A stretch of 42,776 nt of DNA from Clostridia bacterium (GTDB lineage: Bacteria; Bacillota; Clostridia; UMGS1883), in the NCBI GenBank assembly GCA_030527235.1, contig JAUNBL010000012.1:1-42776 (forward strand). Direction: 5' to 3'. The notes under the pieces were generated by a model. That model was not told where the DNA came from. It saw only the letters and a list, made by a program, of their open reading frames with translations, and did no database searches. Positions 20,767 to 35,101 of this stretch are shown here, one piece after another; the stretch's first letter is position 1; each line of letters begins with the position of its first letter. The translations under genes were made by a program, and so were the position numbers.

Positions 20767-21879
20767 ATGGCAAGTTTGAGCTTACAACACATCTACAAAA
20801 AGTATCCCGGCGGAGTTACCGCGGTAAGCGATTTTAATCTCGAAATTAAGGATAAGGAGTTTGTTATTCTCGTCGGTCCTTCCGGTTGCGGTAAATCTAC
20901 GACACTTCGTATGATAGCGGGTCTCGAGGAAATTACAGAGGGTGAGCTTTACATAGGCGACCGTCTCGTAAACGACGTGGCGCCCAAAGACAGAGACATC
21001 GCAATGGTGTTCCAAAACTACGCTCTCTATCCTCATATGACGGTGTTTGAGAACATGGCGTTTGGATTGAAACTTCGCAAAACACCTAAGGACGAAATTC
21101 GCAAGAGAGTTCAGGAAGCCGCTCGTATTCTTGATATTGAGCATCTCCTTGAGAGAAAGCCAAAGGCTCTTTCCGGCGGTCAGCGCCAGCGTGTTGCTCT
21201 CGGTCGTGCTATTGTTCGCGAACCCAAGGTTTTCCTTATGGATGAGCCGCTGTCCAACCTGGACGCCAAGCTGCGTGTACAGATGAGAACGGAAATTACT
21301 AAGCTCCATCAGAGATTGCAGACAACATTTATATACGTAACGCACGATCAGACTGAGGCTATGACAATGGGTACGAGAATCGTTGTTATGAAAGACGGAT
21401 TCATCCAGCAGGTTGATGATCCGCAGATTCTCTACAACTCTCCTGTAAATATGTTTGTCGCCGGCTTTATCGGCAGTCCTCAGATGAATTTCTGCACTGC
21501 GAAGGTTATAAAACAGGACGGCGATACTTACCTTGAGTTCGGAATTAGAAACCGCGTTAAGCTTTCCGCAAAAAAGGCCGCCAAATTTGGAAGCGAATAT
21601 GACGATAAAGAAGTCATCATGGGCATCCGTCCCGAGGACATGTATGATGATGATGAGTCTCTTGCCAAGTTTCCCGACAGCATCGTAACAGCCACAGTAG
21701 ACGTTACAGAGCTGATGGGCGCGGAAACATATCTTTTCCTTACGATTGACGACATTGCGTTTACAGCTCGCGTTAAGCCCACCTCCACAGCGAGAAGGAC
21801 AGATGTCATTAAGGTAGCTTTTGACCCTGATAAAGTACATGCCTTTGACAAGGAAACAGAAAGAGTTATCACTAACTAA
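20767..21879 (+). CDS. msmX: MsmX/UgpC-type sugar ABC transporter ATPase
   Basis: 370 residues. Walker [10 protein letters not shown] (37-45), Q-loop in [14 protein letters not shown], signature [14 protein letters not shown], Walker B and D-loop in [15 protein letters not shown], switch His in [11 protein letters not shown], and a C-terminal TOBE/MalK-like regulatory domain (about 235-370). ATPases of this type energise several CUT1 oligosaccharide importers in Gram-positives, and the gene often stands alone, as here, without permease or binding-protein genes. Codon usage and a strong AAGGAGG suggest high expression. It converges with the polysaccharide-lyase operon, which itself lacks an importer. 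Which permeases it serves is unknown. Confidence 0.92.
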
Positions 21880-21890
21880 ACTAAAAGTTA

Positions 21891-21936
21891 AAACACACCG
21901 AGACAGGCTAAGAAGAGCTGTCTCGGTGTGTTTTTT
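21891..21936. terminator. Strong bidirectional terminator
   Basis: A perfect 16-bp stem, AAACACACCGAGACAG (21891-21906) and its complement (21918-21933), with an 11-base loop and T-runs on both strands. It ends the ATPase gene (+) and the polysaccharide-lyase operon (-). Confidence 0.95.
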
Positions 21937-21971
21937 AGTTTTGCCTGCATATCGGCGCACGCATAAAAATA

Positions 21972-24329
21972 TTATTTTGAAATTCTTCTGCCAAACATTC
22001 GGATTTCGCCCAAGTCAAAGCATATTGGCCAATCCGCTGTTTTTTGCATATGCACTTTAATATATCTGTAAGGCTCACTGCTCTTTGATGTCAAAAACTG
22101 CATACCGCACATTTTTTTCGTCATGTCAGTAAGAGCAGTCCAGCTCTTGCCATCGTTTGAGGCGGAAAACATCACATTGGCCGCTCGGGAAGGGAATCCG
22201 CTTCTTTCCCCAACCGCAAATCTTTCGGCGCAAAACGCAAAACCATCTCCAAAGTCAAACTTCACGGCACGCTCGTCATCATAAATACTCGTGAATGTCA
22301 AATTGCTGGAGTCAGTATATTTTGAAATATCACTGCCAACGCTTGAGGTACACACTTTGTCAAACGCTATGCTGCCATCATCAAGACGCGGGTTAAGTGG
22401 CCTGAGTGATTTTACTGCCGCCCACACCTGAGCCGCGTCGCCGCACCGCATTGCTTCTTTCAAGCTTTGAAGCGATTTCTGTTCGTACTCTTCATTTTCA
22501 TCATAGCCGCGGAGAGCAAAAGCGAAGGCATCATCATCAGAAGTAAAAATGTGAATATTCTCTTTTACCACTTTGTTTCTTCCGCTTATCTTCAAAACGC
22601 GGTATTCTGTAATATCTTGTCTGCGCTCTCCTTTTCTCATGTAATCTGCCTCAGTCTGAGGAAGTTCCATGTCCGAGAGTTTGCGCAAGGAAAAGAACTC
22701 CGTTCTTTTTGCACCGAGGCTATCTATCTCCATCTTGCACAGTCCTTTCGGGAGTTTGAACACAAACGCCTGCGCTATCCCCTTTGTATCGCATAAATAC
22801 TCTGTCCCAAACAGTGTGTGCCCCTCAGCATCAAACAGCGTTATCCTTGCCACGCCGTCTGAACAGGCGCTGATTTCAAATACTCCTCCGTCGCTTTGGA
22901 AGCAGAAACTCTGCCGGCATTCATCTATCTTTGCCAAAACCGCACCGCGCTGCTTTTTCGCCGCTAAAGAAAGTGCGCAAGAAACGTTTGCAAAACATGA
23001 CAGGTCATAATCCGACTCATATATTTCAACGACCGGAGCAAGAACACGACGCGCCTTATTTTCGTCAGGCGCGCTAAAAGGCGTACAGGCGGAAATCCAA
23101 AAATCAAATGCGTAATTGTGCAGTGTTTCTATGAATTCGCCGCTCCTTGCGCGTTGTACATGAAACGGTAAAAACTCCTCATACGCCTTTTTAATATAGC
23201 AGTATTCCTCTTTTTCCAAAAGGTCTTTAGGACATGCAAAATATGCGGCCGCAACTCCGTTCATGATTAGATTCCCGCGTCCGGAAAAGCTCGGCGCCAT
23301 GTACAGGACATTTCCCTCTCTCGAATAGTATGCCTTAACATACTCGTCAAGCTGTGCATCAGCAGCGATGTTTCTCTCGCTCTCGGTTTCAGCGTATGTC
23401 GGAAACCATTTGATGTCATGCCCGAGATTGTATTGCATATAAAGCGCAGCGCACTTAAACAGCCTGTCGTCCAAAAAACGTGACGGAGGCACGCCTTGCT
23501 TTGATACTTGACCGGTTACGGAATCCACCAGTGTACCCTGCAATTCCATTGTCCGAGTCATCATCAAAAGGTTATCGATATTGCCGGCCGCATGCGGCTG
23601 GTCGCGACCCATCTCAACAAGCTGCAAATTCGCCTCCGGCTCTACTATGCGCATCTGCGAAGCAATGGCGCCGCTTCTTGCCCACGAATTTGAAGAAGCG
23701 TTTACCATGCTCCATTCTACCATTTGCTCGTAAAGAGCCCTGTCGTCCGTCAGTACGGCATGCGCCAAAACGCCTATTATAGCGTAAGTGTGCTGATTCA
23801 TGAAATAACCGTTGTAGTACAGCGCTTTATGGCATATAGGAGCAGTACAATTTTCCGCAACGGCCGCAACAAGCGTTTCTCCCGTTACAGTACGCAGTAT
23901 GTCCAGCGCAGCGCAAAGCGTGTAGACATACTTTCCAAGCTTGATATGGCAGTCGCAAAACGGTTTCGGGAAAAAGTTTTTCACAGCGGCATAATGCTCA
24001 AAAATTGCAAGAGGTATCTTCAAATACGCGTCATCACCACTAACGGCATATATGACGGCATGCGTCCATGCGCACTGCGCATCCTGCGCAAAAAGATATA
24101 TCTCATCATCATTTGTAATACGCTCTACCATGGCGAGTTTTTTGTCAAGACGCGAATATGTGGTTCGCCTTAGTCCCTCAAAATAGTCTGCCCACGGAGA
24201 AATCCCCTTCAATATCGCATCACGACACGTTTTAAGCGTAGCGGCTGTACAGCCGATACCCGGGTGAGTGAAACCTGTTTTTGAAACCGTGCGCTTAATA
24301 TTGGTCTCGCCTTTTACTATCGTTTCCAT
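21972..24329 (-). CDS. Cytoplasmic alginate-lyase-fold polysaccharide lyase with C-terminal discoidin-like domain
   Basis: 785 residues without signal peptide or membrane helix. After FTHPGIGCT (20-28) comes an (alpha/alpha) barrel of the Alginate_lyase (PF05426) type. Two candidate active-site motifs are present: FMNQHTY (N178, H180) and EMGRDQPHA (239-247). The same two motifs occur in the giant secreted lyase of this operon, so the enzymes are paralogous. This gene lacks the added binding modules, but its last 125 residues resemble an F5/8 type C (discoidin) domain (SASNDGKSWTAL..YRYIKVHM). Oligosaccharides brought into the cell are its probable substrate. It starts 33 bases after the GH88 gene with GGAG at 8 bases. 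PL38-like assignment is a guess; substrate is unknown. Confidence 0.75.
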   Translation of the reverse strand: METIVKGETNIKRTVSKTGFTHPGIGCTAATLKTCRDAILKGISPWADYFEGLRRTTYSRLDKKLAMVERITNDDEIYLFAQDAQCAWTHAVIYAVSGDDAYLKIPLAIFEHYAAVKNFFPKPFCDCHIKLGKYVYTLCAALDILRTVTGETLVAAVAENCTAPICHKALYYNGYFMNQHTYAIIGVLAHAVLTDDRALYEQMVEWSMVNASSNSWARSGAIASQMRIVEPEANLQLVEMGRDQPHAAGNIDNLLMMTRTMELQGTLVDSVTGQVSKQGVPPSRFLDDRLFKCAALYMQYNLGHDIKWFPTYAETESERNIAADAQLDEYVKAYYSREGNVLYMAPSFSGRGNLIMNGVAAAYFACPKDLLEKEEYCYIKKAYEEFLPFHVQRARSGEFIETLHNYAFDFWISACTPFSAPDENKARRVLAPVVEIYESDYDLSCFANVSCALSLAAKKQRGAVLAKIDECRQSFCFQSDGGVFEISACSDGVARITLFDAEGHTLFGTEYLCDTKGIAQAFVFKLPKGLCKMEIDSLGAKRTEFFSLRKLSDMELPQTEADYMRKGERRQDITEYRVLKISGRNKVVKENIHIFTSDDDAFAFALRGYDENEEYEQKSLQSLKEAMRCGDAAQVWAAVKSLRPLNPRLDDGSIAFDKVCTSSVGSDISKYTDSSNLTFTSIYDDERAVKFDFGDGFAFCAERFAVGERSGFPSRAANVMFSASNDGKSWTALTDMTKKMCGMQFLTSKSSEPYRYIKVHMQKTADWPICFDLGEIRMFGRRISK

Positions 24330-24362
24330 ACATGCTTCTCCTCATTGCACGAAATTATACGC

Positions 24363-25448
24363 TTACAAATCTATGCCGTCTTCACGAAGCAGCAACACAG
24401 CTTTTGTAAAATAGTAGTCGCCGTAGATTATATTCATATGCCCCTTGCTTGTGTGAAAACTCTCGCTGCCCTTAAGTATCATCGAATCGGTCTCAAGGTT
24501 CCAATCGCCACAGAGCGCGTCTGTTGTTTTAATGAGGCGAATCGCGCCGTCTATGTATATCTTCTTTTCTTCTTTAGGGACATGCCGCGCTATCTCAATC
24601 ATACCGCAAGCCGCAATGCTGCCGGCGGTTGTATCGTACAACTCCGAACCCGCAGGCGCGCGAAAATCACTGAGCGGTACACTACCCTCCGGTACATTGG
24701 CAAGGAAATATGCGGCCACACGTTTTGCGGTATCCAAATATTCAGTCTTCTTTGTCCATGTATAGCTCTGCGCAAACCCGCATATTGCCCATGCCTGGCC
24801 TCTGCTCCACGATGAATTTTCTCCATATCCCTGACCGGGCGGCGTTTCAAGTACGCTCCCGTCAGGAGCATGTACAACAATATGGTGTACGCTTCCATCG
24901 CCCCGTACATGGTCACGCATTGTCATGTCCGCATGCGCCATAGCGATTTGCGCGTATCTGTCGTCTTTGATTTGCTCGCTCGCCCAATAGAGAAGCGGTA
25001 TATTCATCATGCAGTCAATAATCGACCATGTAACTTTGTCTTCATTCCATGCGCGTATAAATCCGCCGCGGAGATTAAATCTGCCCGCAAGCAGGTTTGC
25101 TGCGTAGAGAGTGCGCACTTTTGCCTCCTCGGAGCCTGTAAAGGCAAAATCCTTGCCGCAGGAGAGATACCACATAAAGCCTACATCGTGATGCAATCCG
25201 TCATATTTCACAAACGCTTTGTCAAGCAGCTGCTGCGCCCGCCTTGCGGTTATAAGATATTCTTCGTTCTTCTCGGCGTTATACATTTCCCACATCAGCG
25301 CACTCCAAAAACCGTTAGTCCACCACGTTATGTCAGTTTTTGCCTTATCATCATGAACCCCGCCTATTGTTGTATATGGGATTTTATCCCTCGAACGAAT
25401 TGCAGTCTTTTCACATTTCGCGCATATTTTGCTGTATATCTCTCCCAT
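24363..25448 (-). CDS. Unsaturated glucuronyl hydrolase (GH88 family)
   Basis: 361 residues with the six-hairpin barrel pattern of GH88. DITWWTNGFWSALMWEMY at the start, HHDVGFMWY with the first catalytic Asp, and WSIIDCMMNIPLLYWAS with the second Asp correspond to the two active-site acids of Bacillus UGL. The enzyme hydrates the 4,5-double bond left by polysaccharide lyases on a uronic acid and so releases it from an oligosaccharide. No signal peptide, so it acts in the cytoplasm. Start ATG 25448 has AAGGAG upstream, inside the end of the AraC gene; a longer reading to 25508 would overlap araC. The pairing with two lyases indicates a uronate-containing substrate, more likely glucuronate-based than alginate. 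Confidence 0.9.
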   Translation of the reverse strand: MGEIYSKICAKCEKTAIRSRDKIPYTTIGGVHDDKAKTDITWWTNGFWSALMWEMYNAEKNEEYLITARRAQQLLDKAFVKYDGLHHDVGFMWYLSCGKDFAFTGSEEAKVRTLYAANLLAGRFNLRGGFIRAWNEDKVTWSIIDCMMNIPLLYWASEQIKDDRYAQIAMAHADMTMRDHVRGDGSVHHIVVHAPDGSVLETPPGQGYGENSSWSRGQAWAICGFAQSYTWTKKTEYLDTAKRVAAYFLANVPEGSVPLSDFRAPAGSELYDTTAGSIAACGMIEIARHVPKEEKKIYIDGAIRLIKTTDALCGDWNLETDSMILKGSESFHTSKGHMNIIYGDYYFTKAVLLLREDGIDL

Positions 25449-25452
25449 ATTG

Positions 25453-26301
25453 TCAGCTCTCCTTGTCTTTATCTGTATAATTCTTGATTCTCTCTCGATG
25501 CTCGGCATACATTTTCTTGTATTTTGACGGCGGAATTCCGCTCTGCCGCGTAAACGCCTTGGTAAATTCTACTGTGCTGTCATAGCCAACGGAATCAGCT
25601 ACCTCACGTATCATTAGACCGCCGTTCTGGAGCAAGCTCCTGGCCACGTCCATATGATAGTTAAGAATATACTGCTTTGGCGCAAGCGACACTTTCGCCT
25701 TAAACAGTCGCGTGAAATAACTCCTATTCAGGCTCAGGTGCTTTGCAACCTCCTCCACCGTAGTACGGTGTGACACGCGCGCATGTATGTAGTTTTTAGC
25801 CCTTTCAACATACATGTCCGCGGGACTCGTGGGCTGTTTATCATTTTTTACCATTGTAGCAGCGAAGCGCCAAAACATACTCGTCAGCTTATATGATGTC
25901 ATTTCTCCCGTGTTTACCAAATCTTTAAGCGCATTTCCGCATTCAAACGGCTCATCGTCCGAAAAAATCGGATTGGCGGGCGAAAGATTCGACCTTTGGA
26001 CAAATTCTTCCGCCTTGTTGCCGTAAAATTCAATCCAGTAGTAGAGAAACGGATCGTCCTTATCGGCAACATATGTTGTAAGCTGACCCGGAAAAATCAA
26101 AAATGCTTGATTGCGTTTTACGTCAAATCGCCTCCCATCCGCCTCAAGGTAGCCGCATCCCTCATAAACATAGTGCAAAAGATAAGTCGGCCTGATAAAA
26201 TATCTTGACGCAAATAAGGGTTCACACATTCTTCTGCCGTACTGCACAATATTAAAATCGGTGTTGTCGCGTACATTGTTTATAAAATTCGCGTAATTCA
26301 T
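25453..26301 (-). CDS. AraC-family transcriptional regulator
   Basis: 282 residues. The N-terminal cupin-like sensing domain (about 20-130) has FLIFPGQLTTYVAD, and the C-terminal double helix-turn-helix (about 175-270) has TVEEVAKHLSLNRSYFTRLFKAKVSLAPKQYI and IREVADSVGYDSTVEFTKAFTRQSGIPPSKYKK, the AraC/XylS signature. The ATG at 26301 overlaps the TGA of the giant lyase by 4 bases (ATGA), so translation is coupled to it. It is probably the activator of this operon, responding to an oligosaccharide; candidate operator repeats lie at 32075-32097. The second position in a catabolic operon is uncommon for such regulators, which are usually divergent or first. Confidence 0.9.
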   Translation of the reverse strand: MNYANFINNVRDNTDFNIVQYGRRMCEPLFASRYFIRPTYLLHYVYEGCGYLEADGRRFDVKRNQAFLIFPGQLTTYVADKDDPFLYYWIEFYGNKAEEFVQRSNLSPANPIFSDDEPFECGNALKDLVNTGEMTSYKLTSMFWRFAATMVKNDKQPTSPADMYVERAKNYIHARVSHRTTVEEVAKHLSLNRSYFTRLFKAKVSLAPKQYILNYHMDVARSLLQNGGLMIREVADSVGYDSTVEFTKAFTRQSGIPPSKYKKMYAEHRERIKNYTDKDKES

Positions 26302-29300
26302 TCTAATCTCACCAACCCTTCGCAACACGGCTTCATTGTCGCAAAGCTTTCCCAAAGCATAACGTAGACATCCGCATCATGGTCATACATTTGACTTATG
26401 TCAATATCTGTTAATCCATCGCAGATAAACTCCGCACTCTCCGTTCTGACCAGACTGTTCCCTTCAAATGAGGACACTATGAGTATGCACTGCTCACTCG
26501 ATTGACTTGAAACCGTTATAGTTTCAAAAGCGTCATCTGCGTACATTGTTATACTCCCGCTTGCGACACACTTGAGATTTGAAATGCTAAACTGCCGCTG
26601 TGCGCTTCCCTGACCGCCTCTTACACAGATTTTGTCTATCTCGCTTACCGCCGCTGTCCGCAGCGCGTAGTCTGCGGCCAGGCACACATCGTCCACGTAA
26701 ATTGAAAATCGCGAGCTCTGTGTATCGGCAACTATTTTTACGTGATAAGCAACATTTTTGGTATATGGAATATCGCTGTCCCTGCCATATGCGGCAGAAT
26801 CGCCGTTATAAGCGTCAAACAAGCCTTCAGTTGTAAGGCGTGTTGCAATCGCCAAATCGCTCCATGCCGTGGGCGTTACACCGCTCCCCACAAGTCCTAC
26901 TACCGCGTCTATGTTGTCTGCAAACGCGGTTATGTCATACTCTATTGTGACAATGCCGCTGTATGCCTGATCAAGCATTACCGTGGTAAAATCACCTCCG
27001 GAGTATATTTCGTCATACTCCGTGTACTGCGTTACCTCCATGCTCTCAGCATAAAAATCCATAGAATCTGCACTTGCGCCGCCGAGGAAAGCAAATTTCG
27101 CTATATTGCTCACATCTCCCGCACTTGTGCGGAACGCGTAGTTTTGGGCAATCAGCATATCGTCTGCCCACGCGCTGTATCTTTGATTGTAAATATCAAT
27201 TGAAAGCTTGATGTGATGCGTACTTTTCGCCGAGTACGCCACACGGTTTGCATATTCATATTTTGATGCATTATACGCATCAAAATATCCGCCTGTGTTA
27301 AAGCGCAGCAGGATACTGTAATCTGTCCACGCCGCAGGAGATGCGGCGGACGAACTAAACGCCATAACCCCGTCCGTCAGGGCAGCTGCCGAAACATCGA
27401 ACTCAATCGTAACATCGCCGCGATATGCTTCCGCAAGGTCCTGTGTCATAAATATTCCCGAAGCTGTGCTGTGGGAGAAGATGCGCCCTGCGCTCTGTGC
27501 CGTGTTTTCACTGTATTCGCCGACAAGTCGCACCTCGGAAAGAGACGTGCCGTAAAATCTCACATAGCGGTAAATTCCGTTGTCAGGCGCAACCCATGTC
27601 AGGGCATCGTTTGATACTTCAATATATGCGGACGCGTCATTCAAAATAATTTGTGTAAACATCGCTCCGCGATTGTCGCCGAAATCAGCCATCAGCCATC
27701 CGCCGCTCGTGCCGTTTGCATGCTTAAGCGTTGCCTGCGTGGAAGTATTGTTATCTATCAGTTTCTTATACTCCTCCAATGCCGCAGCAGCGCTCATGCC
27801 GTTTGAAGTGGAAAATACTGCGGTACTGACAAGGTCCACAACTTCTGTGCCGTCGTCCAATACAACAAACTTATCAAGCAGGAACAGTCCCTCGTCCGCA
27901 GCTATAAGTGAATGCAGAGCCGCATAAAAAGCATCGCTTGTCATCGACATCGCAGACTCTTCGCTTGCCGCACGATAGGCCGCATTAAACGCCGCAAGCG
28001 TATCAGATGAGTAGCGTTTAGCCGGGTCGTAATTTTTAATCAGCTTTGAACACAACGTCTCAAAGGATGCACAGAACACTGCGTCCTCACGATATGTTCG
28101 AGAGGTTTCACCGTCCGAGACGGTAAGCAAGAGATAGCTGCTCTTACCATCGTCTTCATCGCTTAAAGAAATGGTAGCCGCGCTCTCTCCGAGAGTTGCG
28201 GGCATTTTACCGCCTATTTCCACACTACCTGAAGCGGTGAACGTGAGCTGGGTTTGAGCGCTGCAAATATATTTTTCACTGCCGTTTTCAAATACCTGCG
28301 GCACATATGTCAGATTTTCTATCGAAGGCAGCGTGTCGGAGGCGAATTCAATGTAATCGATATCTACGCTTCCTTCGCCTATCCGCGCAAAATTAATGCG
28401 CTCTCCGCCTGAAATCGCGCTGCGTACTACGCTGAATGTACGCCACTGCCCCTGTGTATTGGGCAAGTGATACACTGCGAATACGCTGCCTCTGGAAATA
28501 TGTCGGTTTATAAGCTCTACAGTCGTATCCGAATATGTGCGCACACGAATCGAAACGTTGTCCGAACTCGGCAAAAACCCTATGTTCCACGCAAAGACAG
28601 TGTTTTCATCTGCCTCAATATATCTGATATCGTCCTCTTCCAATACCTTTGCCGCCCCGCAATCAACCACGCCAAGGCTATTTTCAAGATGGAAGCGGGA
28701 AGATGTGTTAACGCTTCGCTCGTCCACGGCCTGATAATAAGAACCTCCCATCGCCTCATCACCGGTGAACAGGAGTGTGCCAAAGCCGAGAAATTCGAGG
28801 CTGTTTCCCTCCGGAATGGCCGTTTCATACGCCTGCGCCATATATTTAATTTCTTCTCCGCTCATGTCGCTTTTTGCATAATACTTATAATAGTTATATA
28901 TTATGCCTATTGAAGGGTACAGCAGCCCTCGATTGGTATCGTTTATACTGGTGTACATCGTATATGAGGACGTTTGATTGCACCACGCGGGAACGTAATC
29001 CACGCTGCCGCCCAGATTGTACTTTGAAATCAGGTTCGCTCCGCAAAGCAGACGGTGGTCCAGAAATTCAAATACGTCCACAGCGTCGGCCGCATCAGAA
29101 ACAGCTCCGGTCACTTTATCTACCTTTGTATTCTGATTCACTGCCGTCATCGCAAGCGTCGCAAGTGCGCCGATGTCTCCGTACGCATGTCCCTGGTCAC
29201 GCCCCATTTCAACATGCTGTATAATGGGTTCTGTCAAAACCTCGCCGGTTAAGTCGTTTTTCTCCATGAGGCGTATAACATTTTTTATTGAACCGCTTCG

Positions 29301-32015
29301 ATAGTTATCATAAATGCTGTTAACCGTAGTGCGTTCCACTGCTTTAGCATAATCTGAGACATCGTTTCTCCAAATTGCACTGGCCATGAAAGCCATGTTA
29401 TTTATACCGTGCTGATTCATAAAGTGCCACCAGCGGTTGTATTTATCATATGTAAGATTAAGGAATGAATCTATCGCCGCCGTGTCGGCCGCCGTCCACA
29501 CATTTTCCGCACACTGCCCAAAACGTGTGCCATCGTAGTCGCTGTAGCGCAATATCTCAGCAGCCAAGGCAAACTTGTACATCGCCGTACCAAAATATAT
29601 CTGCTCGTCTGAAAGCGACGATATCGTTTCCATTTTAGACCAATTTCTCAAAATATAAAGCACATTCGAGCGATAGGTATCATTTCCGGTTATATACCAC
29701 ATAATAGCCTGTTTAACGGCAGTGCCGCTGTCAATGCGGGCAAGCACGCCCACATGGTCATCCTTATACGCAACATTTACGTATCGAGACGTTCCGCCGT
29801 CACCATAGTGAATGCGCGGGGTTGTTGAGCATCTTGAGTCTGACGCAAAGGAGCGATACGCTGTATACCATGGTTCATCACCTGCATGTACATGTGCGCG
29901 CATACGGTCCAATTCTGTTTTTGTAAGCGTAATTCCCGGATGTATAAATCCCGACTCTGCATCTGTTACTTCAACAACACCTGTCTTTGCCGCGCTGATG
30001 TTGTTCTTAAGATAATCGGTTTTGGCTTTCCGCTCCGCGTTACCGTAGTAAATCACAATCTCATTGCTGCCATCGGCGCACAGCACGCTCTTCTCATAAA
30101 TTTCACAAAGATAGTATGTCTCAGTGTCAAAGACAATTTCCGCGGGCATTTGCGAAAGCGAAACCTTGTACTCCTGCCCGACGAACGCACCTTTTACTTC
30201 CTGCGGCGCAATCTCAACGCCGCTGTCGCGGTCCTTAAAGAGTACCGAAACACTCGTTGGCGCTGCGTAGTCCACCTCTAAATAGGGCGCGTCCTGCGCT
30301 GCAAGTGAAAATGATGCCTCGCCGGATGGCATCATGAGCCGCAGCACTAACTTATCCTCCGCAGCAAGAAATGCCTCCCGCACATCGATTGTAATCCAAC
30401 TTACAGACTCTGACGCCATCTCTTCCTCAGACCAAAACGCCGCTTCATAGGAATAGTCTCCGTTTTTCGCGGCAAAATCAGCCTCGTCCATTGTCCCGAG
30501 AGCATAGGTCTGCGCCATGTTTTCCGTCTCATAAGCCGCCATGCGCGCCCATTGCATACCCGAATGCGATGCCGATGTTATTTTCAGTCTGAGCTTTGCC
30601 GCACTCACATTCTCGCGCGAAACTGAATCCGGTATCTCAAATCCAACTGCGGCAGCCCTGGCAATTAAAGCCGACAACTGGGACGTTGCCGTATCTTTAT
30701 ACACATATGGAGCATTCAGCGCCGAAGCTGTCTCAGATACGTTTTTCGCAGACACTATGGCTTCCTCTCCATCATATCCTCCGCTGTACCCCGCACCGGA
30801 AGCAATGATGGCTATTGAGGAGCGTTTAGTATACGTAACGATAATCTTTTGAGGCAAGGTCGATATCAGAACAGTTGCCTCGTTGTCCGCGTCCCTCGCA
30901 TAGACGCTGTCGCCGACGGCAATACTATTCGGGGCGTACGGGGTCAAAACCAGCCCGTCACCAATGGAGCATGTAAAAAGGAAGCTGCTTTGACGTATCG
31001 CTGCGCCGTTTTGGTCAACGCAGGCAATTTCCACACCGTTAAAATCTTCCCTGCTGCATTCGACTTCTACACTGTATTCCCCGTTTTGTGCAAGAGAAAT
31101 ATCCGCTGTAAATGTGCATGAAGACGTTGGAGTATACATATACACACCGTCCGTTGAAACACTCCTGGCGGAAAAGGTTATCGTCTCGCCGGCTGCAGCG
31201 CTGATACTTTCTACCCTTTCATATACCGTTTCGCCCTGATATGTATAATTTATACTGACTGTCACATTAGAGCAAAGAGCTGCAATCTCCTCTTGTGAAA
31301 GCGCGGCATTGTATATCCTGAAATCTGAAATTGTTCCGGCGTAACCTTCATTCCATTTGGAATAACCTATCGCCGCCAGTCCCTCACGTCCGGATATGGG
31401 TCCGTAATCAAATGCCTCTTTAATCGTTACGCTATCGTCACTCTCTCCCTTGTATATCCCGTCAACATAGAGCTTTGTCTGTGTTCCTGAAATAACGGCG
31501 GCCACATGGTGTACACGAGTGGCGTCATACACTCCGCCGAATGTTGTTCCGCTGTTTGCGCCTGTCTGCTTTTCAACGCGAATACTGCCGTTCGAGTACT
31601 GTATAATGCCGACATAGTGGCGCATATGCCACGAATTTGCCGCCACATAATAATTTGAAATATAAATCGGCCAGTTGGGACTGTTGGAAGCTTGCGAAAA
31701 AAAGGCAATCGTCATTTCGTCGCAGTTCCGAAGTCCTTTTTGCGCATTTTCGATAAGGTCTTGCGGCAGCTCCAAATAGCTTCCGTTAGAAAGCGACATC
31801 GTCCCGTTTTCTACAAGCACGCCGGTTTGGTCGGAAGAATTATCTACAACCGTCGCATCAAAACCATTCCCGCTCTGGTCGCAAACCTTACCGTTTTGTA
31901 TACTCGTGAAATCATAGTGCAGTAAAAGCGCAGTTTCCGGCGATGCCTGCGTAAAAGGCGCAAAAAACCACAAAAGCATTGTTATAGCAGCAAATAAACA
32001 TACCGCCTTTTTCAT
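26298..32015 (-). CDS. Giant secreted multidomain polysaccharide lyase
   Basis: 1905 residues. Signal peptide 1-24 (ending FTQAS). Order of domains read from the sequence: LamG/concanavalin-like (about 30-240), Ig/mucin-binding-like strands (about 240-410), a DNRLRE-like carbohydrate-binding region (about 418-582), the Alginate_lyase-type catalytic domain (about 685-1105), a CBM6-like domain (about 1108-1232), a linker with a helical FIVAR-like segment (about 1300-1380), F5/8 type C (about 1390-1500), two tandem related LamG-like repeats (about 1513-1662 and 1672-1815) and a C-terminal beta domain. The candidate active site is FMNQHG (N867, H869) and EMGRDQGH (H943), matching the family. No LPxTG or S-layer motif is visible, so it should be released. 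Start: ATG 32015, GAGGAG 8 bases upstream. Confidence 0.8.
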   Translation of the reverse strand: MKKAVCLFAAITMLLWFFAPFTQASPETALLLHYDFTSIQNGKVCDQSGNGFDATVVDNSSDQTGVLVENGTMSLSNGSYLELPQDLIENAQKGLRNCDEMTIAFFSQASNSPNWPIYISNYYVAANSWHMRHYVGIIQYSNGSIRVEKQTGANSGTTFGGVYDATRVHHVAAVISGTQTKLYVDGIYKGESDDSVTIKEAFDYGPISGREGLAAIGYSKWNEGYAGTISDFRIYNAALSQEEIAALCSNVTVSINYTYQGETVYERVESISAAAGETITFSARSVSTDGVYMYTPTSSCTFTADISLAQNGEYSVEVECSREDFNGVEIACVDQNGAAIRQSSFLFTCSIGDGLVLTPYAPNSIAVGDSVYARDADNEATVLISTLPQKIIVTYTKRSSIAIIASGAGYSGGYDGEEAIVSAKNVSETASALNAPYVYKDTATSQLSALIARAAAVGFEIPDSVSRENVSAAKLRLKITSASHSGMQWARMAAYETENMAQTYALGTMDEADFAAKNGDYSYEAAFWSEEEMASESVSWITIDVREAFLAAEDKLVLRLMMPSGEASFSLAAQDAPYLEVDYAAPTSVSVLFKDRDSGVEIAPQEVKGAFVGQEYKVSLSQMPAEIVFDTETYYLCEIYEKSVLCADGSNEIVIYYGNAERKAKTDYLKNNISAAKTGVVEVTDAESGFIHPGITLTKTELDRMRAHVHAGDEPWYTAYRSFASDSRCSTTPRIHYGDGGTSRYVNVAYKDDHVGVLARIDSGTAVKQAIMWYITGNDTYRSNVLYILRNWSKMETISSLSDEQIYFGTAMYKFALAAEILRYSDYDGTRFGQCAENVWTAADTAAIDSFLNLTYDKYNRWWHFMNQHGINNMAFMASAIWRNDVSDYAKAVERTTVNSIYDNYRSGSIKNVIRLMEKNDLTGEVLTEPIIQHVEMGRDQGHAYGDIGALATLAMTAVNQNTKVDKVTGAVSDAADAVDVFEFLDHRLLCGANLISKYNLGGSVDYVPAWCNQTSSYTMYTSINDTNRGLLYPSIGIIYNYYKYYAKSDMSGEEIKYMAQAYETAIPEGNSLEFLGFGTLLFTGDEAMGGSYYQAVDERSVNTSSRFHLENSLGVVDCGAAKVLEEDDIRYIEADENTVFAWNIGFLPSSDNVSIRVRTYSDTTVELINRHISRGSVFAVYHLPNTQGQWRTFSVVRSAISGGERINFARIGEGSVDIDYIEFASDTLPSIENLTYVPQVFENGSEKYICSAQTQLTFTASGSVEIGGKMPATLGESAATISLSDEDDGKSSYLLLTVSDGETSRTYREDAVFCASFETLCSKLIKNYDPAKRYSSDTLAAFNAAYRAASEESAMSMTSDAFYAALHSLIAADEGLFLLDKFVVLDDGTEVVDLVSTAVFSTSNGMSAAAALEEYKKLIDNNTSTQATLKHANGTSGGWLMADFGDNRGAMFTQIILNDASAYIEVSNDALTWVAPDNGIYRYVRFYGTSLSEVRLVGEYSENTAQSAGRIFSHSTASGIFMTQDLAEAYRGDVTIEFDVSAAALTDGVMAFSSSAASPAAWTDYSILLRFNTGGYFDAYNASKYEYANRVAYSAKSTHHIKLSIDIYNQRYSAWADDMLIAQNYAFRTSAGDVSNIAKFAFLGGASADSMDFYAESMEVTQYTEYDEIYSGGDFTTVMLDQAYSGIVTIEYDITAFADNIDAVVGLVGSGVTPTAWSDLAIATRLTTEGLFDAYNGDSAAYGRDSDIPYTKNVAYHVKIVADTQSSRFSIYVDDVCLAADYALRTAAVSEIDKICVRGGQGSAQRQFSISNLKCVASGSITMYADDAFETITVSSQSSEQCILIVSSFEGNSLVRTESAEFICDGLTDIDISQMYDHDADVYVMLWESFATMKPCCEGLVRLE

Positions 32016-32050
32016 CACGAACACTCCTCTGCAGTTCACATTGTGTTTCT

Positions 32051-32079
32051 ATTATACACCTGGCTTGCTTTGCAGTAAA
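32051..32079 (-). promoter_or_regulatory. Promoter of the polysaccharide-lyase operon
   Basis: On the minus strand, TATAAT (32051-32056) is perfect and TTTACT (32074-32079) lies 17 bases upstream. The -35 is poor, as expected of an activator-dependent promoter. Confidence 0.65.
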
Positions 32080-32097: not shown

Positions 32098-32140
32098 TGT
32101 TACTAAAATGTGACATTCATTTATGTTTATTTCACAAAAG

Positions 32141-32174
32141 AGAACCACCTGCACATCTCTTGACAGGCGGTTCT
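32141..32174 (-). terminator. Terminator at the end of the exopolysaccharide operon
   Basis: On the minus strand an 11-bp stem (32141-32151 with 32164-32174, one G-U pair) with a 12-base loop is followed by CTTTTG. It lies 68 bases past the GT2 stop. Confidence 0.65.
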
Positions 32175-32241: not shown

Positions 32242-33030
32242 CTATTTTTGATTCCTAAACTCCCGTATACCCCTGTACGCAGCTCTAAGCGCAGCGGATA
32301 GAGTTATTGAGCCTTTGTATTGTCTGAAATTTTTGAGTGTAATCAGCGTTATGTACGGATAGGCCTTTATGCCTCCTATAGCATAGAGCAATGCGCCCTT
32401 ATCGGAAAAATATTTTTCGTCATAGCCCTTAAACCAAGAAGACTCGCTCATGTCCACACTGCAAAGAACATTAGGAGAGGCGTATACTCGCATACCTTTT
32501 TTTATACAGTCAGATATAAATATGCTGTCCTCGCCCGCGCTGTATAGCGCGCCGCCGCCGAAAAGCAAGGAAAACGCAATGTTAGCGCGCAGCAGCGCTT
32601 CTCTTCTCACCGCAAACCGGACCGCTCCATATCTTAAGCAGTTGTGAAACCTTATCCTGTGGCGCTTAGTAATAGTATGTTCAAAGCGCTGAGAACCGAA
32701 TGCTCTGATGTTAAAAACAATCATATCGGCGCTGCGCTGCGCTTCAAATTCCCGAAGCACCATATCTTTGTAGCCGTCTTCATAGCGTATATCCTCATCT
32801 GCAAATAGCAGTATGTCTCCGCTTGCATGCAGCAGTGCGCAGTTTCTGCTCCGTCCTATTCCACGCTCGTTATGCGAATACATGCGCACCTTGCAGCCGC
32901 GTATGTTCGTTTCTTCATATTCCTCCCTGTCGCACTGGTTTATTATAACGGCGTCCGAATCAATATTCATTTCGCGCTGCAATTTCATATCTTTCTGATG
33001 CATAGCGGAGCAAAGCACTTCTATTTTCAT
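32242..33030 (-). CDS. Family 2 glycosyltransferase
   Basis: 262 residues from ATG 33030 (an ATG at 33042 with a poorly placed GGGAG is also possible). The GT2 fold is indicated by ERGIGRSRNCALLHASGDILLFADEDIRY, whose DED corresponds to the DxD metal-binding motif, and by EDSIFISDCIKKGMRVYASP further on, a typical acceptor-side ED motif. It would transfer a sugar from a nucleotide donor in polysaccharide assembly. It is the last gene of the cluster 39082-32242, 60 bases after the GT4 gene. Confidence 0.85.
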   Translation of the reverse strand: MKIEVLCSAMHQKDMKLQREMNIDSDAVIINQCDREEYEETNIRGCKVRMYSHNERGIGRSRNCALLHASGDILLFADEDIRYEDGYKDMVLREFEAQRSADMIVFNIRAFGSQRFEHTITKRHRIRFHNCLRYGAVRFAVRREALLRANIAFSLLFGGGALYSAGEDSIFISDCIKKGMRVYASPNVLCSVDMSESSWFKGYDEKYFSDKGALLYAIGGIKAYPYITLITLKNFRQYKGSITLSAALRAAYRGIREFRNQK

Positions 33031-33090
33031 TTTAATAACCATGGCTCCCGCAAAAGCGTAAGCTTCCTTTCTTTCAAATTGAAAGTTGAA

Positions 33091-34245
33091 TCAGGCGGGG
33101 AAAAGCCTTTCAAATTCCGTTGCCGCCTGCAAGTTGTCAAACACTTTATGCGAACGGTGCTTAGGACTTTTTCGCACAATAGCATCTTGTAACGCCGATT
33201 CTATGCCCTCCGCCGTGTTTTCACAAACTAAGCCGCATCCTCGCTTTTCCACAAGCTCTCTCGCGCTTGTAGTGTCAGTCGTGAGTATAGGCAGCGAAAA
33301 AAACTCGGCCTCACCATAAACCATCGGCGCCGCCTCGTTATAGGAAGGCACCAGCAATAAATCCGCCTTTTTGAAATACGGGTAAGGGTTTCTTTTCTGA
33401 CCGTGCAGTATCACAGTGTTTTCAAGATTCAACTTCTCTATGGTCTTCAGCGCCTCGTCGCGCTGCACACCATCTCCCACAATATGCCATACAAAACTGT
33501 GGTTCTCGCGCAAGCGGGCGATAATCGGCAGCATGCGCAATATTCCTTTTTCCTCGCTTATCCGCGCAACAGTGAGGACATTAAATGTATCCGGCAGTTC
33601 CGCCTCGTATTCCTCTCCCAGCTGCCTAAGTTCATCGAAATTGTAACAGTTATGCACGGCAAAAACTCTCCCTGCCATATCCGGCACAACCTCAAGAAAT
33701 CTTTCTCGACAGCTTGTACTGCAGGCAGCAATCGCATCAAGTCTGCGGCAAATTTCTATATTGTAGCGACAGTTGCCCTCGTAATTTTTATAGTCACAGT
33801 GTATGAATCCCACTTTTTTTTCAGCACGTACACAGTTTAGCACGACTTCGTTGCATCCGCCGTAAAAGAGCTTTGGCGAAGCGTTTTGCATGAAAGAAAC
33901 GGCATAATCAAACAACTCGTCCATCTTATAGCTTCTTGTGAGCAGGAAGAATGGAAGCCTGGTCGAAAACACCTTTGTCCAAAGCGCGCAAAGCGTTCTT
34001 AGCGCAAAGACATAAAATCCGGCCTTTTTCGCCTCAGATTGTGACATGCCCATAATTCGCATACGGCGCGGCGGTTCAATAATCCGTACGTTCGGCGGCA
34101 GGGTATCCATAAGTTCACCACAGCGCGACAGCAGCAAAAGAGTAATGTCATACTTGTCTCTTACCTGCCAGAGCAGATTGACAAGCGATTTCTGGATTCC
34201 GCCGATAGCAAGATTATTGTTTACAATAAGAAGTTTTTTTGTCAA
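33091..34245 (-). CDS. Family 4 glycosyltransferase (GT-B fold)
   Basis: About 384 residues. LLIVNNNLAIGGIQKSLVNLL is the N-terminal Rossmann start with its GG-turn, LTVARISEEKGILRML opens the C-terminal donor domain, and EAAPMVYGEAEFFSLPILTT holds the EX7E motif of retaining GT4 enzymes. A cytoplasmic enzyme of exopolysaccharide synthesis. Start: TTG at 34245 has AGAGG at good distance; a GTG at 34254 overlaps the same ribosome site and the phosphoesterase end. It begins one base after the preceding stop if the TTG is used. Confidence 0.88.
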   Translation of the reverse strand: MTKKLLIVNNNLAIGGIQKSLVNLLWQVRDKYDITLLLLSRCGELMDTLPPNVRIIEPPRRMRIMGMSQSEAKKAGFYVFALRTLCALWTKVFSTRLPFFLLTRSYKMDELFDYAVSFMQNASPKLFYGGCNEVVLNCVRAEKKVGFIHCDYKNYEGNCRYNIEICRRLDAIAACSTSCRERFLEVVPDMAGRVFAVHNCYNFDELRQLGEEYEAELPDTFNVLTVARISEEKGILRMLPIIARLRENHSFVWHIVGDGVQRDEALKTIEKLNLENTVILHGQKRNPYPYFKKADLLLVPSYNEAAPMVYGEAEFFSLPILTTDTTSARELVEKRGCGLVCENTAEGIESALQDAIVRKSPKHRSHKVFDNLQAATEFERLFPA

Positions 34246-34246
34246 A

Positions 34247-35101
34247 TCATTCACCTCTTAACACAACCTTTAGAATCTCAGGTGTGTTAAATACGCGCGG
34301 AAAAGCATCGTCTTGCCCCAGTCCGCCCGATACAAGCATAATCGAACTTCCGGCTGCATATTCACCGCGCACGTACTTCGTATTTCCAATATGCTGCATT
34401 AAAATATAGTCCCTGATTTTCGGAAGATTTATATAGCCCCCGTGAGTATGACCTGCAAGTACAACGTCAAACGCATATTTTGCTACCGTGTCAAAATAAT
34501 TGGCACGGTGAAAAAGCAGCACCGTAAAATCATCGCCGCATGCCTTTTGCAGCTTTTCAAGCTTCTCTTCCATCTTGTAAAACTGCTGTGTCATGGTGAA
34601 ATCCGAATACTGCAAATCTCGATAGCCGGCTACAACAATTCTATCCTCGCCGCGAACAATCTCCGCCGTTTCGTCGTTGAGCACATTGACCAAAGCTTTC
34701 CGCGCCACATCTCCGGCAGTAATTTGCTCTCCGTCAATACTCCAAAGCTCATGGTTGCCATATGCATAATACACATCACACAAGGCGCGCAGTTTTGTGC
34801 ACAAACATTCAAAATTCGCATAGTCGGTCGTATCCATATTAATCATATCGCCGCCGAGTAAAATCAAATCCGGCTCTATCGATTCAGTAATGGAAACAAT
34901 TTTTTCCACATCTGCGCGGTCATGGCTGTCGGAAATGAACGCAATAGTGAAGCCGTTAAACGAAGCAGGAAGCCTCTCGTTTATAATTGTATATTCACTT
35001 ACAACTACGCGTTCGCTGTCCCAGAATACATATACTACGGTAAAAACTGCGACTGTCAAAAATATGGCAGCCGCAATTCCCAATACCCTAAGAACCTTCA
35101 T
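34247..35101 (-). CDS. Membrane-anchored metallophosphoesterase (YkuE-like)
   Basis: 284 residues: an N-terminal membrane helix (about 5-28) and a calcineurin-like phosphoesterase domain with ISDSHDRAD, LLGGDMIN, YGNHELW and LAGHTHGGYI, the complete set of metal ligands (D-x-H, GD, GNH, GHTH). The active site should be outside the membrane. The ATG at 35101 has GAGG 9 bases before it; a TTG at 35104 is directly adjacent. A place in an exopolysaccharide operon suggests action on a lipid-linked or surface glycan phosphate, which is inference. Confidence 0.85.
   Translation of the reverse strand: MKVLRVLGIAAAIFLTVAVFTVVYVFWDSERVVVSEYTIINERLPASFNGFTIAFISDSHDRADVEKIVSITESIEPDLILLGGDMINMDTTDYANFECLCTKLRALCDVYYAYGNHELWSIDGEQITAGDVARKALVNVLNDETAEIVRGEDRIVVAGYRDLQYSDFTMTQQFYKMEEKLEKLQKACGDDFTVLLFHRANYFDTVAKYAFDVVLAGHTHGGYINLPKIRDYILMQHIGNTKYVRGEYAAGSSIMLVSGGLGQDDAFPRVFNTPEILKVVLRGE

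Follow-up and report, generated by a model that had tools for sequence, protein, structure and literature searches.

A four-gene Clostridia operon encoding two predicted toroid lyase-like proteins and a GH88 enzyme, a candidate unit for uronate-polysaccharide degradation

In the polysaccharide lyase BoPL38, catalysis involves Tyr298 and His243 (PMC13169297), and other toroid lyases likewise employ Tyr, His, and Asn in catalysis (PMC12088678). Here, we describe two lyase-like proteins in which this set of residues appears altered, encoded together with a GH88 unsaturated glucuronyl hydrolase and an AraC-family regulator. A survey of the open literature returned no described family with their features and no relative with a known activity or demonstrated substrate.

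The window, which is the whole 42,776-nt stretch of Clostridia DNA that we analyzed, contains a minus-strand operon in which the gene for a giant secreted protein is followed by those for the regulator, the GH88 enzyme, and a second lyase-like protein of 785 residues.

26298..32015, minus strand: secreted giant, 1905 aa (signal peptide, LamG, lyase-like domain, C-terminal CBM-like repeats), from the ORF, RBS, and start
25453..26301, minus strand: AraC-family regulator (PF02311 and PF12833; ATGA overlap with the giant)
24363..25448, minus strand: GH88 unsaturated glucuronyl hydrolase by similarity, 361 aa, without a signal peptide (1vd5, E=2e-55; both catalytic Asp)
21972..24329, minus strand: 785-aa lyase-like protein without a signal peptide (translation, AlphaFold model, Foldseek matches to PL17/PL38/PL5)
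32136..32174, minus strand: terminator-like hairpin upstream of the operon (-21 kcal/mol, z -4.0)
21885..21942, both strands: bidirectional terminator hairpin between the operon and a convergent ABC ATPase gene (-41.4 kcal/mol, z -8.2, minus strand)
32051..32079, minus strand: promoter-like site, TTTACT-17-TATAAT (position fits; such matches occur at chance frequency)

The giant begins at ATG 32015, preceded by the RBS AGAGGAG, and stops at 26298; a GTG start at 32039, which would give a 1913-aa ORF, was rejected as eight residues too long in favor of the ATG with this RBS. The ATG of the AraC gene at 26301 overlaps the TGA stop of the giant as ATGA, the GH88 gene starts at ATG 25448 after a gap of 4 nt from the AraC stop, and 33 nt separate the GH88 gene from ATG 24329 of the 785-aa gene. 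With a strong terminator hairpin on either side, the four genes make up a single delimited unit. The four-gene operon proposed in the preliminary description is thus borne out, with every gene at the position given there.

Around this unit, an MsmX/UgpC-type ABC ATPase gene (20767-21879, plus strand) converges with the operon and could energize product import. Two glycosyltransferase genes lie upstream on the same strand as the operon (32242-34254, minus), and beyond them, genes up to about 39082 resemble polysaccharide biosynthesis genes. The source assembly measures 2.09 Mb and is 82% complete; because the genome is incomplete, absences from it carry little weight. Its nearest relatives are uncultured Clostridia from samples labelled Lapin (which we read as rabbit), goat rectum, and roe deer rectum; the genome is of a herbivore-gut type.

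Within the giant and the 785-aa protein, we recognize the following features.

31941..32015, minus strand: putative signal peptide of the giant, MKKAVCLFAAITMLLWFFAPFTQAS, read directly from the translation
31281..31724, minus strand: LamG/concanavalin A-like module of the giant (PF13385, residues 106-253 of the 1913-aa ORF, E=1.2e-15)
28740..29972, minus strand: predicted lyase-like (alpha/alpha) toroid domain of the giant (AlphaFold model, pLDDT 86.1; Foldseek; PF05426, E=1e-3)
29409..29423, minus strand: FMNQH motif of the giant, weakly aligned with NNH of PL38 by hhalign (N and Q invariant in 58 sequences, H in 52 of 58)
29187..29210, minus strand: EMGRDQGH motif of the giant, its Arg weakly aligned with the Arg preceding Tyr in PL38 (all 58 sequences have the same E, G, R, D, and H)
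26589..27437, minus strand: two tandem C-terminal sialidase-CBM-like repeats of the giant (PF22585; 37% mutual identity, E=3e-26)
23085..24329, minus strand: lyase-like domain of the 785-aa protein, residues 1-415 (29% identity to the domain of the giant; pLDDT mostly >90 in residues 11-310)

About eight accessory modules had been proposed for the giant, a plausible number of which the LamG module and the two C-terminal repeats have direct support. The two lyase-like domains are homologous, with 29% identity over 412 aa (BLASTP, E=5e-32), and share FMNQH (residue 865 in the giant and 176 in the 785-aa protein) as well as EMGRDQ-x-H (residues 936 and 239). Sequence searches brought few matches to known lyases. 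The Pfam Alginate_lyase profile PF05426 matches 18 of 20 relatives (best E=7.7e-15), with the giant itself falling below the cut-off. NCBIfam gave no lyase match for either protein and weak PRK00325 matches for two relatives. Against the sequences of solved structures, the giant returned LamG-type matches only and the 785-aa protein none; profiles A1, A3, and A4 yielded no significant match to PL5, PL17, PL39, PL35, or other toroid lyases, the nearest match of A3 on the PDB by hmmsearch being PL38 at a nonsignificant E=0.1.

The predicted structures match a lyase fold. An AlphaFold model of the domain of the giant, built from an alignment of 58 sequences, has a pLDDT of 86.1 and a pTM of 0.85, and its Foldseek matches are PL17 (8bdd, E=6e-5), PL5 (1qaz, 3e-4), BACOVA_01668 (5e-4), PL39 (6jpn, 8.5e-4), PL38 (1.7e-3), and PL35 (8khv, 2.5e-3), with query TM scores of 0.34-0.46 and identities of 9-14%. 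The model of the 785-aa protein, confident over its first ≈310 residues (mostly pLDDT >90) and poor in its C-terminal part, again matches PL17, PL38, and PL5; taken together, the matches of the two models have identities of about 9-15%. Judged by these models, both proteins contain an (alpha/alpha) toroid polysaccharide lyase fold. The preliminary description, which had named the lack of any lyase-fold match as one result that would speak against it, accordingly stands on this point, as it does on the Alginate_lyase fold and motifs common to the two proteins. It had also left the lyase subfamily unassigned, and this caution is upheld: no single PL family dominates the fold matches, and no solved structure gives a significant sequence match to the lyase-like domains.

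Across 58 diverse group-A sequences, the group carrying N-Q-H, the HPG motif and residues Asp110, Asn215, Gln216, Glu284, Gly286, Arg287, Asp288, His291, and Gln309 (numbering of the modelled domain) are invariant, giving the signatures N-Q and E-x-G-R-D-x-x-H; His217 is kept in 52 of the 58. A profile of group A aligns weakly with PL38-type sequences (hhalign probability 14%, E=0.002), a comparison set that we checked through L131, which scores E=7e-83 against BACOVA_01668 and E=4e-69 against BoPL38. In this weak alignment, N-Q-H falls on N-N-H, with Gln in place of the Asn before His, and Arg287 pairs with an Arg that lies six residues N-terminal to the catalytic Tyr. At that canonical position, Tyr occurs in 15 of the 58 sequences; the giant has Tyr and the 785-aa protein has Ala248. 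Group A thus shows neither significant similarity to characterized PL38 members nor NNH together with a conserved catalytic Tyr. His291 might replace the catalytic Tyr, and both proteins are predicted to act as lyases by beta-elimination. Counting against this activity, the canonical Tyr, which serves as base/acid, is not conserved, and Gln stands in for the neutralizing Asn.

Alternatively, one domain, probably that of the 785-aa protein, may have ceased to act as a lyase and become a binding protein or an epimerase-like enzyme. Ala248 at the Tyr position would suit such a loss, dermatan sulfate epimerase 1 is among the fold matches of the giant's model, and the N-terminal Alginate_lyase module of RiPL8 has been reported as seemingly functionless (PMC13027841). 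However, the 785-aa protein keeps the family-wide Asn178, Gln179, Arg242, Asp243, and His246, and has His180 as most members do; we consider loss of lyase function improbable.

We placed both proteins in a tree of 71 domains, computed by a quick method with SH-aLRT support, in which some branches of the 785-aa clade are long (a program warning). The giant groups with proteins from the same taxonomic family. The 785-aa protein groups with that of locus L060 and with proteins from Sumerlaeota, Verrucomicrobiota, Lentisphaerota, and Planctomycetota (support 99), sharing up to ≈45% identity within this clade versus 26% with the giant. By this phylogeny, the two are deep paralogues from two old clades with no recent duplication, so that the paralogy noted earlier holds as homology, with a depth that was not visible from the window. 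A second group, B, which carries N-W-D and ESGRDQGH, is homologous to group A (hhalign 99.9%). Class-wide, matches to either group at E<=1e-20 occur in 9 of 391 sampled genomes, eight of them in the family of the window.

Several further loci deserve mention. The source genome also has a group-B lyase (G000:C15:25511-26614; L061:13427-15448) with N-W-D replacing N-Q-H, and further along its contig lie three exo-beta-1,3-galactanase-like genes (L069). Two family members (G004:C7 and G005:C1) carry three lyases within ≈25 kb, beside proteins of 2634-2706 aa and DUF5696 proteins, and Massilia and Microbulbifer (L095, L100, L106, L115) have tandem group-A lyases of ≈1250-1890 aa. In four loci, group-B lyases adjoin a conserved protein of up to ≈1140 aa (L068:3994-7221, L059:8079-11468, L065:13115-16534, and L056:17558-19999), possibly a novel enzyme, which is almost without Pfam matches (a weak RGI_lyase match in L059 only).

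The third gene of the operon is assigned to GH88 by sequence similarity and by its two catalytic residues: Asp88 and Asp145 correspond in the alignment to Asp88 and Asp149, respectively, of the UGL from Bacillus sp. GL1, in agreement with the preliminary description. For surveys of other genomes, the GH88 of the window itself served as the query because PF07470 scores apparent GH105 genes far above the true GH88 (our reading of the scores). Among 14 genomes of genera g1-g4, nine have both lyase and GH88, one only the lyase, one only GH88, and three neither (Fisher p=0.04); in six of the nine, GH88 and a lyase are no more than 10 kb apart (p ≈ 6e-8 if the surroundings of lyases are taken to make up 3% of the genome). 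Co-occurrence and co-location both uphold the proposed coupling of GH88 to the lyases. The regulator shows a similar association: outside the source genome, all but one of the matches to its effector domain down to about E=3e-43 adjoin lyases, the exception coming from a genome where no lyase was found. The next tier of matches pairs with GH105-like genes in many genomes (for example, G000:C4:2870-3310 with G000:C4:4063-5067). The effector would be an unsaturated-uronide product. Genes of the KduI family occur in only 6 of 21 family genomes, which counts against the explanation that we favor.

Indirect evidence on the substrate comes from the lyase loci of relatives. GH28 genes occur in 17 of them, and in five family genomes, the sole GH28 of the genome adjoins a group-B lyase; other loci hold beta-xylosidase-type and exo-beta-1,3-galactanase-like GH43, GH95, GH51 and GH127 arabinofuranosidases, AraA, and GH29. 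These neighbors come from other organisms, some lyase loci are without them, and no arabinosidase, galactanase, or sugar permease gene is present in the window's own operon. Because of such neighbors (GH43, GH51, GH127, AraA, GH28), a GlcA-bearing plant heteroglycan of the type II arabinogalactan or gum type is the most likely substrate. A mannose-containing substrate, to which ManA in L060 and ROK in L097 had drawn attention, was rejected since no other locus supports it and the ManA of L076 is not near a lyase.

The substrate might otherwise be a GlcA polymer with a simple repeat (glucuronan, hyaluronan, or unsulfated chondroitin/heparosan), with the two lyases and GH88 as the entire depolymerization pathway, a set that would suffice for a homopolymer or a disaccharide repeat. 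The operon's GH88 has a Ser-x-x-Thr-x-Lys stretch, as in streptococcal GAG enzymes, but carries Gly where streptococcal UGL has an aligned Arg, which we take to be Arg236. Although glucuronan lyases and one HA/CS lyase are among the members of PL38 (PMC13027841), the plant-glycan enzymes beside lyases in relatives argue against such a polymer, as does the search of the 82% complete source genome, which found no PF00884 sulfatase; this search also led us to drop a sulfated substrate. The glucuronan or glycosaminoglycan substrate suggested in the preliminary description is therefore unsupported, and we regard a simple GlcA polymer as unlikely. Similarly doubtful is that the lyases remove rhamnose caps from the Rha-alpha-1,4-GlcA ends of arabinogalactan, as PL27 and PL42 do, leaving the backbone uncut. 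The galactanase-like GH43 and arabinofuranosidases near relatives would fit this activity, and PL27 is also an (alpha/alpha)6 barrel (PMC8377490); against it, PL27 is absent among the sequence and Foldseek matches listed, and the presence of another lyase in the cytoplasm suggests that 4-substituted GlcA is still contained in the oligosaccharides that are imported.

On balance, we think it probable that the operon works as a self-contained unit for degrading a uronate polysaccharide, most likely a GlcA-bearing plant heteroglycan, which it cuts outside the cell and finishes inside. This layout, proposed from the outset, agrees with a secreted giant and with a GH88 and a 785-aa protein that have no signal peptide. 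The giant would dock on the polysaccharide via its LamG and CBM-like modules and use beta-elimination to cleave the O4 bond of 4-substituted glucuronic acid, so that the products carry 4,5-unsaturated GlcA at the non-reducing end; the substrate perhaps contains GlcA-Man or Rha-GlcA units. The products would be imported by a transporter encoded outside the operon, trimmed further by the 785-aa lyase, and relieved of unsaturated GlcA by GH88 hydrolysis, and the AraC protein would sense a product and switch the operon on.

More tentatively, the two proteins may belong to an undescribed PL family, marked by N-Q-H, E-M-G-R-D-x-x-H, and His for the usual Tyr, whose members cut plant arabinogalactan or gum-type glycans at 4-substituted GlcA and occur in gut Clostridia, Paenibacillus, Massilia, Verrucomicrobiota, Lentisphaerota, and Planctomycetota. 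We judged novelty against solved structures, Pfam, NCBIfam, PL38-type sequences, and the literature. Its ties to GH88 and to one AraC subfamily make the family easy to locate and to assay. Should the activity be confirmed, the family would be a widespread group of lyases whose active site has changed, and would offer a means of cutting GlcA-bearing plant glycans for which the digestive routes of gut and soil bacteria are undescribed.

Compared with known systems, the closest operon is that of Clostridia bacterium C.9_7 (L060/L126), which likewise has AraC, GH88, and a 785-aa orthologue (38%); it additionally has ManA, a GH43 xylosidase, and a group-B lyase, whereas the giant is absent from the C.9_7 contig. 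The operon's GH88 resembles Bacillus sp. GL1 UGL (E=2e-55) and keeps its catalytic Asp pair. PL5 alginate lyase A1-III has the same predicted fold and a His in an N-x-H-type motif but only 12% identity. PL17, PL39, and PL35 are among the best Foldseek E-values, yet differ by their 9-14% identity and the lack of a sequence match. The likeness to PL38, which comprises alginate, glucuronan, and HA/CS lyases including BoPL38, lies in the predicted toroid fold and, by the weak profile alignment, in NNH versus NQH and E-x-x-R; the group-A lyases differ in having Gln instead of Asn before His, no conserved equivalent of Tyr298, and extra insertions.
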